Part shown: in pieces, positions 20,635 through 29,998 of the stretch
Numbering within the stretch: position 1 is the first letter of the stretch
Layout: each line of letters opens with the position of its first letter
The notes under the pieces: generated by a model
Database searches by the model: none
Seen by the model: only the letters and a program-made list of their open reading frames with translations
What the model was told of the DNA's origin: nothing
Assembly: GCF_014195545.1 (NCBI RefSeq)
Contig: NZ_JACIBX010000012.1
Span: 1 to 64,000 of the forward strand
DNA length: 64,000 nt
Direction of reading: 5' to 3'
Source of the DNA: Limimaricola variabilis
GTDB taxonomy: Bacteria; Pseudomonadota; Alphaproteobacteria; Rhodobacterales; Rhodobacteraceae
Translations under genes and position numbers: made by a program

Positions 20635-20690
20635 GGCGGGCCAATCGAGGCAACCGGCCGCGCGGCGGCCCAGACAGGACGGAACTGCAG

Positions 20691-21029
20691 ATGACGGCGA
20701 AGCGGATGATCTCGGCTTTCCTGGCGCTCGGCGCGCTCGGGGCCTGCACAGCGGGCGCGCAGATCGGCGGGATCGGTGCGCAGGGCAGCCTCGGCAGCGT
20801 CAGCCCGGCCGCCGCGCGCGCCCCGCAGGCCGCGCCTGCCGACCGGCTGGTGGCCGCGATCGAAGCCCAGGGCTGTGCGATCACCGCCGACAACGTGGCG
20901 CAGGTGCTGCTTAAGGCCAACCTGACCCAGCAGCAGCTGCTCGAACTCGGGCCGCAGCTGACCGCCCAGGGTCGCGCCGAGGTCACCGATGACGGCACCA
21001 TCCGGGTGCTGACCGACAACTGCATCTGA
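20691..21029 (+). CDS. Small putative lipoprotein inside the nuo operon
   Basis: A 112-residue protein between nuoD and nuoE. The lipobox LGAC (Cys at about 19) follows a short hydrophobic segment, so it is likely lipidated. After an Ala/Gly-rich linker the C-terminal 60 residues (ADRLVAAIEAQGCAITADNV...QQLLELGPQL) are helical with two cysteines, the second in the last four residues (DNCI). A compact fold stabilised by a disulphide is possible. I know no function; small frames between nuo genes are a feature of Rhodobacterales operons. Confidence 0.75.
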   Translation: MTAKRMISAFLALGALGACTAGAQIGGIGAQGSLGSVSPAAARAPQAAPADRLVAAIEAQGCAITADNVAQVLLKANLTQQQLLELGPQLTAQGRAEVTDDGTIRVLTDNCI

Positions 21030-21095
21030 GGGCACGCCCTCACGACATGATCCGCGCCACCCGAGGGGAGGCGCCCAGAACACCGGAACGAGCGA

Positions 21096-22163
21096 ATGCT
21101 GCGCAGACTTCATCCCGAACAGCCCGAGAGCTTCGCCTTCACCCCGGCCAACCAGGCCTGGGCCGAGGCGCAGATCACGAAGTATCCCGAGGGACGGCAG
21201 GCCAGCGCGGTGATTCCGCTGCTGTGGCGCGCGCAGGAGCAGGAAGGCTGGCTCTCGCGTCCCGCGATCGAGGAAGTCGCGCGGATGCTCGACATGGCCT
21301 ATATCCGGGTGCTCGAGGTCGCGACCTTCTACTTCATGTTCCAGCTCCAGCCGGTGGGCTCGGTCGCGCATATCCAGGTCTGCGGCACGCTGTCCTGCAT
21401 GCTGTGCGGCTCGGAGGACCTGATGAAGGTCTGCCAGGAAAAGATCGCGAAGAAGCCGCATGAGCTGTCGGCCGACGGCAAGTTCTCCTGGGAAGAGGTC
21501 GAGTGCCTCGGCGCCTGCGCCAACGCCCCGATGGCGCAGATCGGCAAGGACTATTACGAGGACCTGACCACCGAGCGACTGTCGGAGATCATCGACGAGA
21601 TGGCGGCCGGCCGCGTGCCGACGCCCGGCCCGCAGAACGGCCGTTACGCTGCCGAGCCCAAGGACAACCTGACCTCGCTGGCCGAAGGTGCCGACGACCG
21701 TGACCCGCACAACGCCGCCGTGGCGCTGGCCGTGGAGATCGGCGACACGATCAAGCGGATCGACGGCACCGAGGTGCCGCTGACCACGCCGTGGCAGCGC
21801 CAGGACGACCACGAGGCCGAGGGCTACGAGGATCCTGCGGAGCCCGCACCGGCGCATGGCCGTCCGGCCGACGCCTCCGGCGTGACCGAGCAGGAGGCCC
21901 CGGCCTCGAGCGCGGCCAAGCCGGTCTCGGCCGATTTCCCGGCCGAGGAGCCGCAGAACGCGACCGAGGGCAAGGAGGCGCCCGAGGGCGGCAAGCCGGT
22001 GGCTCCTTCGGGTGAAGGCGCGCCCGCGACCGATGCCGATGACGCGACCGAGGACAAGGTGGGCACCGCCGACCCGGTGGCGCCGGGTGGCGCCTACAAC
22101 GCGCCCAAGACCCAGAAGCCGGGCGACACGGCCAAGTCCGACTCTTCCTCCGAAGACAAGTGA
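21096..22163 (+). CDS. nuoE: NADH-quinone oxidoreductase subunit E with long acidic tail
   Basis: The first 165 residues are the 24-kDa-type NuoE with its [2Fe-2S] cluster (N1a): cysteines at about 96 and 101 (CGTLSC) and 137 and 141 (CLGAC). The remaining 190 residues are low-complexity, rich in Glu, Ala, Pro, Asp and Lys, ending in SSSEDK; ordinary NuoE is about 160-240 residues. The tail is probably disordered. The stop TGA overlaps an ATG (TGATG) that opens a 44-residue frame. The core call is certain; the tail's role is unknown. Confidence 0.97.
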
Positions 22164-22297
22164 TGGGCGGCGGCGCCCTCTGGATCGACGCGGTGCGCGG
22201 GCCGGAAGGCTCCGCGCATCCGTTTGATTCGGCGGGCATCCGTCCTATGACGAAGGACGGGGCATTTGGCCCCGGCCATCGGGAGGACGCGGCATGA
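22163..22297 (+). CDS. Possible 44-residue frame bridging nuoE and the next gene
   Basis: The frame starts at the ATG inside TGATG at the nuoE stop and ends in a TGA that overlaps the ATG of the next gene (ATGA at 22294-22297). It reads [20 protein letters not shown] at its start, contains a second Met near residue 29, and ends GHREDAA. No membrane helix or known motif is seen. Perfect coupling at both ends, in a 130-base gap that would otherwise be empty, argues for translation; the lack of recognisable similarity argues caution. Confidence 0.4.
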   Translation: MGGGALWIDAVRGPEGSAHPFDSAGIRPMTKDGAFGPGHREDAA

Positions 22298-23100
22298 ACG
22301 GCTTGGGAAACTGTCGGACCATCACCATCGGCGGCGCCGCCTTGGGCGGGGTGCTGTTGTGGATCCTGCTCGCGCTGGGTGAACGCGGCTGGTTCTCCTC
22401 GCTGCTGATCGCGGCGCTCCTCGCCGCCGCCGGTGCGCTTCTCGCGCTGGCGCTGGTCTGCCGTGACGACGAGCCGGAGACAGAGAACGCATCGGCCCAG
22501 ACCCCGGCCCCGACCGTGGACCGCAAGGATGCGGTGCCGGCGCCGGAGACCACTCAGCGCGATAGCAAAGCCCCGCAGAGTGCGCCTGCGAAAGGCGCGG
22601 CAGAGGCCGAGACCGGCGGTCGCCACACCGAAAGCGTAAAGCCCAAGGGCGGTGAGGTGGGCCGTGTGAACGACAGCGCGGTGCTCGAGGGCGGGGATGA
22701 CGACGCCGCTTCGGACGAAGGCGATCTGGGCGAAGAGGTGTCGCGCACCGAGGATCTCGATCGTGCGGCTGCCGAAGCGGATGATGGCGCAGGCGAAGGG
22801 GAAAAGGGCGCCACGTCCGATTTGCCGATGCCCGACGGAGTCGCCGCCGACATGCGCGAGAAGCCCGAGCTGCTCGACGCGCCGCGCGGGCAGGCAGACG
22901 ACCTCAAGCAACTGCGCGGCGTCGGGCCGCGGCTCGAGGAGCAGCTCAACCGGCTCGGCGTCTGGCACCTGCGGCAGATCGCGTCGTGGAGCGAGGGCGA
23001 GGCGGCCTGGGTCGACGACCATCTCGAAGGCTTCAAGGGCCGCATCCTGCGCGATGACTGGATCGGTCAGGCGCGCGAGCTGACGAAGGACGAGGCATGA
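22294..23100 (+). CDS. Membrane-anchored protein with C-terminal helix-hairpin-helix-like domain
   Basis: A 268-residue protein in the nuo operon. Two hydrophobic helices lie at about 8-28 and 32-52, then an acidic, probably disordered linker of about 140 residues, then a final 65-residue domain beginning DDLKQLRGVGPRLEEQLNRL. The 'L..L.GVGP..E..L..LG' pattern is that of HhH/H3TH-like domains (COG3743 style). From memory, a similar domain forms the C-terminal end of NuoE in rhizobia. GGAGG lies seven bases before the ATG. A complex I assembly or accessory role is inferred only from context. Confidence 0.8.
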   Translation: MNGLGNCRTITIGGAALGGVLLWILLALGERGWFSSLLIAALLAAAGALLALALVCRDDEPETENASAQTPAPTVDRKDAVPAPETTQRDSKAPQSAPAKGAAEAETGGRHTESVKPKGGEVGRVNDSAVLEGGDDDAASDEGDLGEEVSRTEDLDRAAAEADDGAGEGEKGATSDLPMPDGVAADMREKPELLDAPRGQADDLKQLRGVGPRLEEQLNRLGVWHLRQIASWSEGEAAWVDDHLEGFKGRILRDDWIGQARELTKDEA

Positions 23101-23300
23101 GCGGTGCGGCGGGTCGGCGCGCGGCGCTGGTGCTCGCCGGGACCGGCGTGTTCTGGGTGATCGCCATCGTCGCGGGCAACGCGTTCGACCTGCCGCATAG
23201 ATGGCGCGGATTGTTCGACCTGATGGCCCTTGCCGGGTTCGTCATGGGATTGTGGATGACTTATCAAACCTGGCGTGCGCGCCGGGACGACGAAAGGTGA
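23097..23300 (+). CDS. DUF5337 family small membrane protein
   Basis: A 67-residue protein with two transmembrane helices (about 8-27 and 38-58) joined by a short polar loop ([11 protein letters not shown]), ending in RRDDER. Size and pattern match DUF5337, which I know from Rhodobacterales nuo operons. The ATG overlaps the preceding stop (ATGA), and its end holds the nuoF ribosome binding site. It could be a small accessory subunit of the complex I membrane arm; this is inference. Confidence 0.75.
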
Positions 23301-23304
23301 GCCG

Positions 23305-24594
23305 ATGCTCAAGGATCAGGACCGCATTTTCACCAACATCTACGGGATGCATGACCGCACGCTGAAAGGCGCGCAGGCGCGGGGGCATTGGGACGGCACC
23401 GCCGGCATCATCCAGAAGGGCCGCGACTGGATCGTCGAGCAAATGAAGGCTTCCGGTCTGCGCGGCCGTGGCGGCGCGGGCTTCCCGACCGGCCTGAAGT
23501 GGTCCTTCATGCCCAAGGAAAGCGACGGCCGCCCCTCCTATCTAGTCGTCAACGCCGACGAATCCGAGCCCGGCACCTGCAAGGACCGGGAAATCATGCG
23601 CCACGATCCGCACACGCTGATCGAGGGCTGCCTGATCGCCTCCTTCGCGATGGGCGCACATGCCAGCTACATCTACCTGCGCGGCGAATACATCCGCGAG
23701 CGCGAGGCGCTGCAGCAGGCGATCGACGAGTGCTATGACGCGGGGCTGCTGGGCCGCAATGCCGCCGGATCGGGCTGGGATTTCGATCTCTACCTGCATC
23801 ACGGCGCGGGCGCCTATATCTGCGGCGAAGAGACGGCGCTGCTCGAGAGCCTCGAAGGCAAGAAGGGCATGCCGCGCATGAAGCCGCCCTTCCCGGCGGG
23901 TGCGGGCCTCTATGGCTGCCCGACCACGGTGAACAACGTCGAGTCCATCGCCGTCGCGCCGACGATCCTGCGGCGCGGGCCGGAATGGTTCGCGGGCTTC
24001 GGTCGTCCGAACAACACCGGCACCAAGCTCTTCGCGATCTCGGGCCACGTCAACAAGCCCTGCGTCGTCGAGGAGGAGATGTCGATCTCCTTCAAAGAGC
24101 TGATCGACAAGCATTGCGGCGGCATCCGCGGCGGCTGGAAGAACCTCAAGGGCGTCATTCCGGGCGGCTCCTCGGTGCCGGTGCTGCGCGCCGAGACCAT
24201 GGAAGACGCGATCATGGATTTCGACTGGCTGCGCGAGCAGCGCTCGGGCCTCGGCACGGCCGCCGTCATCGTCATGGACCAGTCGACTGACATGGTGAAG
24301 GCGATCTGGCGGCTGTCGAAATTCTACAAGCACGAGAGCTGCGGCCAGTGCACGCCCTGCCGTGAAGGCACCGGCTGGATGATGCGGGTGCTGGAGCGGA
24401 TGGTGCGCGGCGACGCGGCGATCGAGGAAATCGAGATGCTGCTCGACGTGACCAAGCAGGTCGAAGGTCACACGATCTGCGCGCTCGGCGATGCCGCCGC
24501 TTGGCCGATCCAGGGCCTGATCCGCAACTTCCGCGACGAGATCGAGGATCGGATCCGGGGCCGCGGCGTCGCGGCCACCATCGCCGCTCAATGA
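23305..24594 (+). CDS. nuoF: NADH-quinone oxidoreductase subunit F
   Basis: A 429-residue 51-kDa-type subunit that binds NADH, FMN and cluster N3. It has [16 protein letters not shown] near 50-65 (nucleotide/FMN site), [19 protein letters not shown], and the [4Fe-4S] ligands of [12 protein letters not shown] near 350 plus a Cys near 395 (HTICALGD). The start is the ATG at 23305, since AAAGGTGA sits just before it within the DUF5337 stop. Its TGA overlaps the next ATG. Confidence 0.98.
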
Positions 24595-24890
24595 CCGGGC
24601 GCGGCGATGAACGCCGCACCGTTACCTGGCGAGACCAGGCGCTGAAGAATTTCGGCGTCTGGCTCGCGGTCTATCCGGCCGTGCTGATCTCCAGCTACAT
24701 GTTCTCATGGTTGGCGCCGGGGCTCCCGCTCTGGCTGGAGATCCTAATTTCCACCGCCTTTACCGTGCCGCTCATTTCCTATGTCGCGGTGCCGTGGGTC
24801 GAAAAGCGTCTTGCCCATGCCAAGGGCGAGACCGCCGCCGAATTCAAGCATCAGGAAGCTGATCAGGCCGAGGGCGGCCCGCGCGGCTAG
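24591..24890 (+). CDS. Small two-helix membrane protein inside the nuo operon
   Basis: A 99-residue protein, coupled to nuoF through ATGA. Two membrane helices lie at about 22-42 and 47-68, the first reading [17 protein letters not shown] and the second ending in [17 protein letters not shown] charged tail ([17 protein letters not shown]) follows. The helix pair resembles, from memory, the C-terminal membrane part of some antibiotic-biosynthesis-monooxygenase-domain proteins, here standing alone. Function unknown. Confidence 0.75.
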
Positions 24891-25027
24891 TCGGGCAGGG
24901 TTCCGCTCACCCAAAGCCGCTCTCTGCAGCGTGATATTGAATAGCGCGCCTTCGGGTCCAAGGTCTCGCCCAGAAGCGCCGGCCGGAAAGAGCAGTTTCC
25001 GGAACCGGCCCGATAGGAGAGACCCGC

Positions 25028-25438
25028 ATGACCATCCCCCATTTCGCGCGCACTGCCGCGCTGATCCTGGGCTTTACCATTGCCGCCGGTGCGACCGCCG
25101 CGCTGCCCGCGCTGCGCGACAACGCCAAGATCCGCGAAGGCCTGATCTCGACCGCGATCGCCTATGAGATCGGCCGCAAATGCGACAGCATCGACTCGCG
25201 CTGGTTGACCGGGATCGGATTCCTCAACTCGCTGCGCAGCCACGCGCTGGAACTGGGATATACTCGCGCCCAGATCTCCGCCTTCATCGATGACAAGGAA
25301 GAGAAGGACAAGCTCGAGGTCGAGGCGCGTGCGCTGCTGCGCCAGAAGGGCGGGGTCGAGGGCGATTGGGAAACCTATTGCGAGGTCGGCCGCCGCGAGA
25401 TGGCGGCGGGCAGCCGGATCGGCACGCTGCTGCAGTAG
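25028..25438 (+). CDS. DUF5333 family exported protein
   Basis: A 136-residue protein with a signal peptide (hydrophobic 9-25, Ala-rich end). The mature part is helical with two cysteines (GRKCDSIDSR and ETYCEVGRREM) spaced to form a disulphide in the periplasm, and ends GSRIGTLLQ. I recognise the pattern of DUF5333, a Rhodobacterales family. AGGAGA lies ten bases before the ATG. A 137-base gap before it suggests it may also have its own promoter. Confidence 0.78.
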   Translation: MTIPHFARTAALILGFTIAAGATAALPALRDNAKIREGLISTAIAYEIGRKCDSIDSRWLTGIGFLNSLRSHALELGYTRAQISAFIDDKEEKDKLEVEARALLRQKGGVEGDWETYCEVGRREMAAGSRIGTLLQ

Positions 25439-25443
25439 GCAGG

Positions 25444-25474
25444 TCGGGGCTGCGCCCGCGTGCCGCAGCCCCGA
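25444..25474 (+). promoter_or_regulatory. Strong hairpin in the gap before nuoG
   Basis: TCGGGGCTGCG (25444-25454) pairs perfectly with CGCAGCCCCGA (25464-25474) around a 9-base loop, six bases after the DUF5333 stop. No T run follows, so it is more likely a processing or mRNA-stability element than a full terminator. A short palindrome, GGAAATTTCC, lies just beyond at 25489-25498. Confidence 0.5.
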
Positions 25475-25612
25475 AGCCGCCCGAGGTCGGAAATTTCCCC
25501 GATCCGGCACGTGGATGCGCTGGCATCACCGGGCGAGCCGCGCTAGAACCCCCTCGATCGCGGCCCCCGATCCGGGGACACGCGTCCGACGCGAGGAAAG
25601 GGGCGGCCTGCC

Positions 25613-27637
25613 ATGTCCGATTTGCGCAAAGTCAGCATCGACGGAAAGGTCATCGAGGTGCCGGGGGCGATGACGCTCATCCAGGCCTGCGAGACCGCGG
25701 GGATCGAGATCCCCCGTTTCTGCTATCACGAGCGACTGAGCATCGCCGGCAATTGCCGCATGTGCCTCGTCGAAGTGGTCGGCGGCCCGCCGAAGCCGGC
25801 GGCCTCCTGCGCCATGCAGGTCAAGGATCTGCGCCCCGGGCCCGAAGGTGCTCCGCCGCAGGTCAAGACCAACTCGCCGATGGTGAAGAAGGCCCGCGAG
25901 GGGGTGATGGAGTTCCTGCTCATCAACCACCCGCTCGATTGTCCGATCTGCGACCAGGGCGGCGAATGCGACCTGCAGGACCAGGCGATGGCCTATGGCG
26001 TCGACTTCTCGCGCTACCGCGAGCCCAAGCGCGCCACCGAGGATCTCGATCTCGGCCCGCTGGTCGAGACGCATATGACCCGCTGCATCTCCTGTACCCG
26101 CTGCGTGCGCTTTACCACCGAGGTGGCCGGTATCTCGCAGATGGGTCAGACCGGGCGCGGCGAGGATGCGGAGATCACCTCCTATCTCGGCCAGACGCTC
26201 GATTCGAATCTGCAGGGCAACATCATCGACCTGTGCCCGGTGGGCGCGCTGGTCTCCAAGCCCTATGCCTTCAACGCCCGCCCGTGGGAGCTGACCAAGA
26301 CCGAGACGATCGACGTCATGGACGCGCTTGGCTCCTCGATCCGGGTCGACACCAAGGGCCGCAAGGTGATGCGCATCCTGCCGCGCAACCATGACGGCGT
26401 GAACGAGGAATGGCTGTCGGACAAGGCGCGCTTCGTCTGGGACGGGCTGGCGCGCCAGCGTCTCGACACGCCCTATATCCGTGAGAACGGCAAGCTGCGG
26501 AAGGCCGACTGGCCCGAGGCGCTGACCGCCGCTGCCGCTGCCATGAAGGGCAAGCGGGTGGTCGGCCTCGTGGGCGATCTCGCCCCGACCGAGGCCGCCT
26601 TCGCGCTCAAGCAACTGATCGAAGGGCAGGGCGGCGTCGTCGAATGCCGCACCGACGGGGCCAAGCTGCCCGCCGGCAACCGCTCGGCTTATGTTGGCAC
26701 GGCGCGGATCGAGGATCTCGACACCGCCAAGCACATCATGCTCGTCGGCACCAACCCCGCCGCCGAGGCGCCGGTGCTCAACGCGCGGATCCGCAAGGCA
26801 TGGCTCGCCGGGGCGAATGTCGGGCTGGTCGGCGAGCCTGTCGATCTGACTTACGACTACACCCATGTCGGCACCGGCCGCGGGCCGCTGTCGCGGACCA
26901 TCGAGCACAAGTTCACCCGCATTCTCGACGAAGACTCGGTCGTCATCGTGGGGCAGGGGGCGCTGACCGGCGCCGATGGCGAGGCCGTGCTGTCCTATGC
27001 GATGGAGCTGGCGAGCCGGACCAAGAGCAAGTTTATGGTACTGCACTCGGCCGCGAGCCGGGTGGGCGCCATGGATGTCGGCGCCACCTCCGAGGGCGGC
27101 GTCGAGGCCGCGCTCGAGGGTGCCGAGGTGATCTACAACATGGGTGCCGACGAGATCGCGCTGCCTTCGGGCGCCTTCGTGATCTACCAGGGTAGCCATG
27201 GCGATCGTGGCGCGCATGCCGCCGACCTGATCCTGCCGGCCGCGGCCTGGGTCGAGGAGCAGGGCCTCTTCGTCAACACCGAAGGCCGTCCGCAGCTGGC
27301 GCTGCGTGCCTCCTTCGCGCCGGGCCAAGCCAAGGAAAACTGGGCGATCCTGCGGGCGCTCTCGGCCGAGCTGGGCGCGGTCCAGCCGTGGAACAGCCTC
27401 GCGCAGCTGCGCCAGAAGCTGGTCGAGGCGCATCCCCATCTGGGCCGTATCGACGAGGTCGCCGAGAACGAGTGGCAGCCGCTCGAACTGGGCACGCTGG
27501 ATGAGAGCTTGGGCGATTTCGACAGCATCGTCGCGGAGCACTACCTGACCAACCCGATCGCCCGCGCCAGCGAGCTGATGGGCGAGCTTGCCGGCAACGC
27601 CCGCGCGCGGCGGCAGCAGAAGATCGCGGCCGAGTGA
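25613..27637 (+). CDS. nuoG: NADH-quinone oxidoreductase subunit G
   Basis: A 674-residue 75-kDa-type subunit, the largest of the peripheral arm. [2Fe-2S] N1b ligands are Cys37, Cys48, Cys51 and Cys66; N5 uses the His/Cys set near 100-120 ([15 protein letters not shown]); N4 uses CISCTRC near 160 and CPVGAL near 210. The rest is a degenerate molybdopterin-oxidoreductase fold with [19 protein letters not shown] near 545. The length is typical of alphaproteobacteria and mitochondria, shorter than E. coli NuoG, and the fourth (N7) cluster motif is absent. Confidence 0.98.
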
Positions 27638-27639
27638 CG

Positions 27640-28029
27640 ATGCGGGGCGCGCTCCTCCTGCCCCTGGTGGCGCTCGCCGCCGGCTGTGCCGAGGCGGACG
27701 CTTCGGCCGGGCGGGAGGGCGCGCCGCGCCATGACGGCGTCGAGACCCGCCTTCTCGACGGCGACCTGGTCAACTTCCACGTCGCGATGAGCGGCGGTGC
27801 CAAGGCCGAGGACGTGATCGCCTATGCGGAGTGCGCGGCGGCGCAATATGCCCTGATCCGGGGCTATGGCTTCGCCCGTCACGTCCGTACGCAACTCGAT
27901 GAATCGGCTGGAAACTGGCGCGCCGATGCTGTTTACACCATCTCGCCGGCCCTGCCTGAGGGGCTGCGCACGATCGATGCCGAAGTCACCGTCCAGAACT
28001 GCGGACTGAACGGCATCCCGACGGTCTGA
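27640..28029 (+). CDS. Small putative lipoprotein between nuoG and nuoH
   Basis: A 129-residue protein. The lipobox is LAAGC at about residue 16, so it should be a lipoprotein. The mature part has a strand-rich end ([24 protein letters not shown]) and two further cysteines ([15 protein letters not shown]). The ATG at 27640 is preferred; a GTG at 27634 overlaps the nuoG stop (GTGA) and would add two residues. No function known. Like the nuoD-nuoE lipoprotein it would sit outside the cytoplasm, opposite the peripheral arm. Confidence 0.72.
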
Positions 28030-28039
28030 GGGAAGCACC

Positions 28040-29080
28040 ATGGTCGAATTCTTCACCGAAACCAGCATCGGAGCCGTGCTGCTGATCCTCGGTCAGTCTC
28101 TGCTGCTGCTCGTGCCGCTGCTGGTCGCGCTGGCCTTCCTGCTGCTGGTCGACCGCAAGGTCTGGGCCGCCGTGCAGCTGCGCAAGGGCCCCAACGTCGT
28201 GGGGCCGTTCGGCCTGCTGCAAAGCTTTGCGGACTTCCTGAAATACATCGTCAAGGAAGTGGTCGTGCCCGCTGGCGCCGACCGCCCGGTGTTCTTCTTG
28301 GCGCCGATGATCTCCTTCGTGATGGCGGTGATCGCATGGGCGGTGATCCCCTTCGCCGATGGCTGGGTGCTCGCGGATCTGAACGTGGCGCTGCTCTACG
28401 TCTTCGCGGTCTCCTCGCTCGAGGTCTACGGCGTGATCATGGGTGGCTGGGCCTCGAACTCCAAGTATCCCTTCCTCGGCTCGCTGCGCTCGGCCGCTCA
28501 GATGATCTCCTACGAGGTCTCGATCGGCCTGATCATCGTCGGCATCATCATTTCGACCGGCAGCCTGAACTTTGGCGCGATCGTTGCGGCGCAGGACGGT
28601 GATTTCGGCCTGTTCAACTGGTACTGGCTGCCGCACTTCCCGATGCTGTTCCTGTTCCTGATCTCGGCCATGGCCGAGACCAACCGCCCGCCCTTCGACC
28701 TGCCCGAAGCCGAATCCGAGCTCGTCGCCGGTTACCAAGTGGAATATTCCTCGACGCCGTTCCTGCTCTTCATGATCGGCGAATACGTGGCCATCGTGCT
28801 GATGTGCGCGCTGGTGTCGCTGATGTTCTTCGGTGGCTGGCTGTCGCCGATCCCCGGCCTGCCCGACGGCGTGCTGTGGATGGTGCTGAAGATGTTCTTC
28901 GTCTTCTTCATCTTCGCCATGGTGAAGGCGATCACCCCGCGCTACCGCTACGACCAGCTGATGCGCCTGGGCTGGAAGGTGTTCCTGCCGCTGTCGCTGG
29001 CCTGGGTCGTGATCGTGGCCTTCCTCGCGAAATTCGAGGTCCTTGGCGGGCTCTGGGCCCGCTGGACCCTGGGAGTCTGA
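28040..29080 (+). CDS. nuoH: NADH-quinone oxidoreductase subunit H
   Basis: A 346-residue membrane subunit with about eight helices that forms the entrance of the quinone channel. [21 protein letters not shown] near the N terminus (quoted in part: '[11 protein letters not shown]') and [20 protein letters not shown] near 215 are the family signatures; the acidic residues of the second lie on the quinone/proton path. GAGGGA precedes the ATG by 7 bases. No anomalies. Confidence 0.98.
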
Positions 29081-29082
29081 GC

Positions 29083-29577
29083 ATGACGCAGATCGACTAC
29101 ACCCGCGCCGCCAAGTATTTCCTGCTGCAAGACTTCATGCAGGGCATGAAGCTGGGCCTGAAATACTTCTTCAAGCCCAAGGCCACCGTAAACTACCCGC
29201 ACGAGAAGGGCCCGCTTTCGGCGCGCTTCCGCGGCGAACACGCGCTGCGGCGCTACCCGTCGGGCGAAGAGCGCTGCATCGCCTGCAAGCTGTGCGAGGC
29301 AGTCTGCCCCGCGCAGGCGATCACCATCGATGCCGAACCGCGGGAGGACGGCTCGCGCCGGACCACGCGCTACGACATCGACATGACCAAGTGCATCTAT
29401 TGCGGCTTCTGCCAGGAGGCCTGCCCGGTCGACGCGATCGTCGAGGGCCCGAACTTCGAGTATTCGACCGAGACGCGCGAGGAGCTCTACTACGACAAGG
29501 AGCGGCTTCTGGCGAATGGCGACCGGTGGGAAGCCGAGATCGCCCGCAACCTCGAGCTCGACGCGCCCTACCGCTGA
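29083..29577 (+). CDS. nuoI: NADH-quinone oxidoreductase subunit I
   Basis: A 164-residue ferredoxin-like subunit (TYKY type) carrying clusters N6a and N6b. Two CxxCxxCxxxCP motifs are seen: [12 protein letters not shown] near 65-76 and [12 protein letters not shown] near 104-115. It lies 2 bases after the nuoH stop, and its end is followed by the ribosome binding site of a carboxymuconolactone-decarboxylase-like gene. Confidence 0.98.
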
Positions 29578-29587
29578 GGAGCAGGCC

Positions 29588-29998
29588 GTGACCGATCAGA
29601 ACCCCTTCGCGCAGATGATGAAGATGGGCCAGGACTGGGCCCGGAAGATGAATCCCGCGCTCGAGCACTTCACGCCGAAGGGCTTCGAGCAGCTCTGGCC
29701 GACCATGCCCAAGGAGATGATGGAGGCGTTCATGGGACGCACCCTCAACCCCGAGGGCCTCGACGCCAAGACGCGGCTGCTGCTGACGCTGACCGGTCTG
29801 ACCATCCTCGGCGCGCAGGCCGAGAGCCAGGTCCGCCTCACCGTGCGCCACGCGCGCGAGGCGGGTGCCACGAAACAGGAGATCGCCGAGACCATCGCCC
29901 AGGCGGGGATGTTCGGCGGCGTGCCCGCGATGACCAAGGCGATGGAACTCGCCACCGAGGTCATGGACGAGGACACCGGAAAGGACACCGCACGATGA
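29588..29998 (+). CDS. Carboxymuconolactone decarboxylase-like protein, cysteine-free
   Basis: A 136-residue protein between nuoI and nuoJ. Residues about 60-130 have the CMD/AhpD helical pattern ([45 protein letters not shown]). There is no cysteine at all, so AhpD-type peroxidase chemistry is ruled out. The N-terminal 45 residues ([20 protein letters not shown]) look like an amphipathic, phasin-like helix. The start is a GTG with GGAG seven bases before it; the stop overlaps nuoJ (ATGA). A structural role is possible; function unknown. Confidence 0.8.

Follow-up and report, generated by a model that had tools for sequence, protein, structure and literature searches.

The stretch of DNA analysed (the window, 64,000 nucleotides of Limimaricola variabilis) holds a complete nuo operon stretch for complex I, and eight non-core frames lying between nuoD and nuoJ, all on the forward strand, were examined in it. 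In the order of the operon, they are a lipoprotein of 112 residues with the lipobox LGAC in the nuoD-nuoE gap (lipoprotein 1, 20691..21029); after nuoE (21096..22163, 355 residues, with a long acidic tail and without a C-terminal helix-hairpin-helix (HhH) domain), a frame of 44 residues (22163..22297) and an HhH membrane protein of 268 residues (22294..23100); DUF5337, with 67 residues and two hydrophobic stretches recognized by eye (23097..23300); a two-helix membrane protein of restricted lineage (24591..24890); DUF5333, with 136 residues (25028..25438); a second lipoprotein with the lipobox AAGC and two further invariant cysteines (lipoprotein 2, 27634..28029); and a CMD-fold protein of 136 residues (29588..29998). 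An initial annotation had taken these eight frames, several of them coupled to their neighbours, as a lineage-specific accessory or assembly set for complex I. All eight are open where it had placed them, and the coupling is confirmed by stop/start overlaps at 23097 (HhH/DUF5337), 24591 (nuoF/two-helix protein) and 29995 (CMD/nuoJ), together with a GTGA overlap at 27634 (nuoG/lipoprotein 2). The identities proposed for DUF5337, DUF5333 and the CMD protein agree with Pfam matches of 1.4e-21 (76.6 bits), 4.6e-34 (117.4 bits) and 6.5e-17 (61.7 bits, PF02627), respectively, the cut-off being 27 bits for the first two and 23 for the third.

The ratio of non-synonymous to synonymous substitution rates (dN/dS) was estimated over 28 pairs drawn from eight Limimaricola genomes, i.e., the window and the same stretch of seven others. 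The core genes gave values of 0.05 (nuoF and nuoI), 0.09 (nuoH), 0.10 (nuoJ), 0.14 (nuoG) and 0.20 (nuoE), and the extra genes 0.17 (DUF5337), 0.19 (DUF5333), 0.21 (CMD, a figure that includes genome L140, whose CMD frame aligned only at residues 58-136), 0.22 (lipoprotein 2), 0.33 (two-helix protein), 0.35 (lipoprotein 1) and 0.40 (HhH protein). With values from 0.17 to 0.40 across eight congeneric genomes, these seven frames, out of eight, are real genes under selection.

The constancy of these genes in related operons was studied in loci fetched by NuoF, the best 80 of 588 matches, a sample that leans towards close relatives. The nuoD-nuoJ stretch was complete in 65 of these 80 named loci, which are the 65 relatives referred to below. 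DUF5337 was present in 64 of them, CMD in 60, DUF5333 in 57 and lipoprotein 2 in 47, each keeping to one gap in the complete loci: nuoE-nuoF for DUF5337, nuoF-nuoG for DUF5333, nuoG-nuoH for lipoprotein 2 and nuoI-nuoJ for CMD, with the exception of one CMD stretch that shares the reading frame with nuoI. Two wider samples were considered, with 198 genomes of the family (Rhodobacteraceae) and 210 of the class. Among the 198, matches over the cut-off were found for NuoF in 197, for DUF5337 in 177 and for DUF5333 in 144. Distances to the NuoF domain were counted only where both places were listed in the genome: DUF5337 lay beside nuoF, at 344-765 bases, in 121 of 122 genomes, and DUF5333 at no more than 6 kb in 107 genomes out of 113; in the remaining ones the two were on different contigs. 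DUF5337, DUF5333, CMD and lipoprotein 2 are thus inherited with the nuo operon. Concerning the lineage-specific character claimed for the extra genes, it held for DUF5337, which passed the cut-off in 3 of the 210 class genomes, all three of the family of the window, in a draw where the kinship of 185 unlisted genomes, with no DUF5337 match, is not shown. Co-occurrence with nuo, a check suggested by the initial annotation, was also run: DUF5337 passed the cut-off in 175 of 183 family genomes with a strong NuoE match versus 2 of 15 with a weak match or none, the limit between strong and weak having been chosen after seeing the data.

As to the nature of the four stable proteins, DUF5333 showed a hydrophobic N-terminus in 66 of 72 members and a lipobox in 1 of 72, and its residues C52 and C118 were invariant across 46 sequences. 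Its structure model (pLDDT 89.5) predicts a secreted helical bundle. When the model was compared with known shapes, the best row (3sol) reached Z 4.8 with a root-mean-square deviation (rmsd) of 4.5 over 85 aligned residues, and three of the top four rows were GspS-type pilotins of type II secretion. Foldseek gave no match at E <= 0.001, the E-value to a GspS-type pilotin being 7.1. The resemblance of the model to pilotins is under the level for helical bundles and may be due to chance. The names DUF5333 and DUF5337 were not found in use in the literature searched. Lipoprotein 2 has a signal-like N-terminus and a lipobox in 43 of 51 family members and lipoprotein 1 in 35 of 47, the window included in both cases, which agrees with the prior reading of two lipoproteins as far as the crude pattern used to score these features goes. 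The mature part of lipoprotein 2 is conserved, and its model is a confident alpha/beta structure (pLDDT 87.4) without Foldseek match at E <= 0.001; Pfam recognized 0 families in 46 of its sequences. A fold relative was sought for it and discarded, as the best hit, an archaeal ribosome chain (VIA, Z 6.4, rmsd 2.7, 77 aligned residues), stays below the usual noise level.

The CMD protein of the window contains no cysteine, as the initial annotation had stated, and the matched region is cysteine-free in 59 of 71 members. The active site of AhpD-type peroxidases is a CxxC motif. An identification with these peroxidases was rejected, the matched region holding CxxC in 0 of 71 members, and so was one with PcaC, for which TIGR02425 gave 45.5 bits against an NCBIfam equivalog cut-off of 155.7. 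Given the low score against the PcaC model and the absence of the AhpD motif, a non-catalytic role may be guessed for the protein. Two CMD frames occur in seven loci (L010, L021, L022, L037, L050, L054 and L063), those inspected in L022, L037 and L063 being near full length and in tandem. DUF4259-type genes adjoin the CMD gene in the nuoI-nuoJ gap of 3 loci, one of them at L061:15981-16610, with a score of 3.9e-25.

Other parts of the operon are more variable. The family of lipoprotein 1 occurs in 42 of the 65 relatives, always in the nuoD-nuoE gap. The two-helix protein is present in all eight Limimaricola genomes and is rare outside the genus, being found in 1 of the 65 relatives and in 4 of 82 loci (the window, L002, which is Limimaricola pyoseonensis, L036 and L025). 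The nuoF-nuoG gap, which in the window extends over 24595-25612, is plastic, with 10 to 3374 bp; elsewhere, out of 66 complete loci, it harbours a different lipoprotein family in 30 and DUF3291-like genes in 23. The six recurrent genes occur together in only 20 of the 65 relatives.

Concerning the 44-residue frame, which had been put forward as a possible peptide, its dN/dS of 0.81 together with the even spread of differences across codon positions (0.35, 0.29 and 0.37) led to its rejection as a gene, and a similar protein was found in only 1 of the 65 related operons. One point favours a gene: the ATG at the nuoE stop, followed by 44 or 45 open codons, is kept in 8 of 8 Limimaricola genomes. 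Because of this, the frame is said to be very likely, rather than certainly, no gene, and to correspond to intergenic DNA. The region contains the ribosome-binding stretch of the HhH gene and, at 22197-22215, just upstream of that gene, a possible nucleic acid hairpin conserved across Limimaricola. Its covariation was not distinctive, with 98% of cells paired over 7 distinct rows and an equal result in 151 of 500 shuffles. A consensus scan of 22100-22320 revealed no internal promoter upstream of the HhH gene; a sequence resembling TTGATT-N16-TATGAC, spotted by eye, was not taken as one.

The HhH membrane protein starts with two hydrophobic helices, recognized by hydropathy, that bear Cys7 and Cys56, and continues with a long linker and a C-terminal HhH domain. 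It occurs in 42 of the 65 relatives, and all the separate HhH genes lie in the nuoE-nuoF gap. A search of PDB sequences at E <= 0.1 retrieved two distinct sequences, 8yy9_O (in four entries, 2e-24) and 9wqv_a (2.9e-26). The former is protein-O of the RC-LH1 complex of Dinoroseobacter shibae, identified from density and liquid chromatography-tandem mass spectrometry and of unknown function, of which only Met8-Cys59 is visible, with a Cys10-Cys59 disulfide; its gene is located between nuoE and nuoF, and the paper describing it leaves open whether it is native or acquired (PMC12079452). By sequence, the HhH membrane protein is a homologue of protein-O: the genes share the same gap, both proteins have a two-helix N-terminal hairpin with cysteines 49 residues apart, and the C-terminal HhH domains are homologous. 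The other chain, 9wqv_a, bears the title 'NADH:ubiquinone oxidoreductase 41 kd complex I subunit', which is probably an annotation name; the same entry holds a reaction-centre L chain (9wqv_L), and it does not appear among the listed PDB matches to NuoE.

The genome of the window differs from the Dinoroseobacter case in that no reaction-centre L/M gene was detected in it; also, the corresponding HhH domain is missing from its NuoE. As PF00124 has no match in this genome, which is 99.55% complete, it is hard to see the HhH protein as an RC-LH1 subunit in Limimaricola variabilis. Presence of a reaction centre, taken as PF00124 over the cut-off, was tested in 50 of the 65 relatives, 27 with a separate HhH gene and 23 without, and was found in 17, the completeness of these genomes not being shown and some of them being metagenome assemblies, which weakens the absences; locus L062, with a match under the cut-off, was counted among those without. 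Of the 17 relatives with a reaction centre, 12 had the hairpin protein; of the other 33, 15 did, so that 15 of the 27 carriers lacked PF00124 over the cut-off. Because of these 15, the HhH protein is not a photosynthesis gene only, and its role must extend beyond photosynthesis. An explanation in which the protein is purely photosynthetic and survives as a decaying vestige where there is no reaction centre would fit the homologues found in reaction-centre PDB entries and the somewhat higher frequency in phototrophs. We consider it improbable, as the excess is not significant (Fisher p = 0.14) and the hairpin of three Litoreibacter with no reaction centre had a dN/dS of 0.04-0.06 (two of the three synonymous distances were saturated and the unsaturated pair gave 0.04). 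Also, by a crude count, 13 of the 15 hairpin proteins from relatives with no reaction centre had at least two N-terminal cysteines, versus 7 of the 12 from relatives with one. For comparison, the hairpin dN/dS between the window and Limimaricola pyoseonensis, which has a reaction centre, was 0.34.

The HhH domain is also known from a complex I subunit, NuoE. Over its residues 92-267, the HhH protein matches the C-terminal portion of the fused 400-residue NuoE model (NF009040) with 8.1e-26, and stretches overlapping these residues match the ends of ribosomal S2, L21 and phasin models. In the window, the C-terminal domain of PRK12373-type NuoE is carried by a separate membrane protein, and NuoE itself is without it. 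The domain ends NuoE in 62 of the 65 relatives and in 0 of the eight Limimaricola genomes, where the acidic tail remains; NuoE-HhH and the hairpin protein are encoded next to each other in 41 of the 65. NuoE copies of the domain had an identity of 0.65 to each other, separate copies one of 0.64, and copies of different kinds one of 0.63; inside a single locus it was 0.67, with 31 of 49 loci exceeding the mean of other loci. These similar values suggest that both kinds of copy have a partner or a constraint in common. In the class, the domain was detected in 22 of 210 genomes, with NuoE, L21 and membrane-anchored or coiled-coil proteins as hosts by eye; two of the weakest matches resemble ordinary DNA-repair proteins. 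Some loci depart from the usual arrangement: the NuoE of L064 (Thermohalobaculum) bears the HhH domain, and the other accessory families were not found in its operon; L057, L065, L079 and L081 carry an additional HhH gene before nuoF, with an N-terminus that looks phasin-like by eye, and Pfam assigned the one of L065 to no family. A far-fetched idea would be that of a shared docking tag: the domain would mark the tip of complex I when on NuoE and a different membrane complex, RC-LH1 in phototrophs, when on the hairpin, and a single partner could thereby join complex I and its neighbour in the quinone pool. If this were true, light-driven reverse electron flow, for example, would be served, and non-phototrophs would place the same hairpin beside another complex.

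The Rhodobacteraceae include Paracoccus, which serves among bacteria as a leading model of mitochondrial complex I. In the 1990s, the complex I operons of Paracoccus and of Rhodobacter capsulatus, of the same family, were reported to contain unidentified reading frames, small extra genes between the nuo genes. Taken together, the results lead to a reading that seems to us somewhat likelier to be right than wrong: the Rhodobacteraceae complex I operon would have gathered lineage-specific genes in layers. The stable layer of DUF5337, DUF5333, lipoprotein 2 and CMD, inherited with the operon, would most likely help in building complex I or in keeping it in the membrane, rather than provide tightly bound subunits. 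DUF5337 may be a membrane hairpin made just ahead of NuoF, DUF5333 and lipoprotein 2 would act on the periplasmic side, and CMD would be a non-catalytic cytoplasmic protein. The HhH protein may be a tethering adaptor, whose two-helix hairpin, probably closed by a disulfide, would dock beside large membrane complexes, with a long linker connecting it to an HhH domain in the cytoplasm. Others have shown that it docks in RC-LH1 in Dinoroseobacter; in Limimaricola variabilis it would need another docking site, and complex I comes first among the candidates, given that NuoE is usually a bearer of this domain. The two-helix protein, and perhaps lipoprotein 1, would be passengers added in a patchy way, and the 44-residue frame would be intergenic DNA.

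Non-core proteins tied to alphaproteobacterial complex I have a precedent in Paracoccus, whose enzyme, solved at 2.3 A and also analysed in purified form by mass spectrometry, contains 14 core subunits, NDUFS4, NDUFS6, NDUFA12 and a PIMT (PMC11522691, as far as the part of the paper available describes them). These are resolved subunits, unlike the window proteins, five of which (HhH, DUF5337, DUF5333, lipoprotein 2 and CMD) were searched against PDB sequences without matching any complex I structure. The available part of a Tn-seq (transposon sequencing) paper on R. sphaeroides covers 14 complex I subunits and does not mention the interspersed genes. Several observations weigh against a role in complex I or against the adaptor. 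DUF5337, DUF5333 and lipoprotein 2 had no match at all in the PDB at E <= 0.1, and none of the seven proteins figures in the available description of the Paracoccus structure, which is not decisive because the operon content of Paracoccus was not compared; with the Paracoccus NuoE as the query, the best of 394 family genomes reached 81%, and none was closer among the 5 genomes in the genus of that best hit. The co-occurrence of DUF5337 with strong NuoE matches may be due to shared ancestry. NuoE-HhH occurs without the hairpin protein in 21 of the 65 relatives, and Limimaricola shows the reverse; therefore, the two need not pair. The HhH domain also ends ribosomal protein L21, which fits nucleic-acid binding equally; one such protein, recognized by eye from its sequence, is encoded in the genome of the window itself, at C1:482375-482566 (locus L086). 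Finally, the hairpin was under weaker constraint in two Pseudooceanicola with no reaction centre, its dN/dS being 0.40.

Two other explanations were weighed against the layered operon. Small genes unrelated to complex I could be hitch-hikers that use a strong operon hardly ever lost, as would be expected from the elastic nuoF-nuoG gap with its other families, the rarity of the complete six-gene combination and the membership of the HhH homologue in a photosynthetic complex. This seems unlikely to us, while deserving real weight, because DUF5337, CMD, DUF5333 and lipoprotein 2 keep their gaps in most of the relatives and DUF5337 tracks the type of NuoE. At the opposite end, all seven proteins could be bound to complex I as a true set of accessory subunits, as linkage to the nuo operon and the HhH domain common to NuoE and the hairpin protein would have it. 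We judge this very improbable, in view of the absence of all seven from the Paracoccus structure as described, the patchy joint distribution, the HhH homologues in reaction-centre entries and the near confinement of the two-helix protein to Limimaricola. These last points, with the plasticity of the nuoF-nuoG gap and the very likely non-genic nature of the 44-residue frame, also speak against the single accessory or assembly set of the initial annotation. Its weaker claim of a tie to complex I survives in the constant positions of DUF5337, DUF5333, lipoprotein 2 and CMD, but no protein was placed inside the complex. A complex I reading is, therefore, plausible for part of the extra genes and unproven.

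With regard to the biology of the family, the operon is a warning that the address of a gene in an operon is not its function. The comparison yields four candidate helpers of complex I, DUF5337, DUF5333, lipoprotein 2 and CMD, with DUF5337 as the first to consider. The gene of the HhH protein, homologous to protein-O, is found under selection also in species without a detected reaction centre, which makes its role accessible in non-phototrophs.

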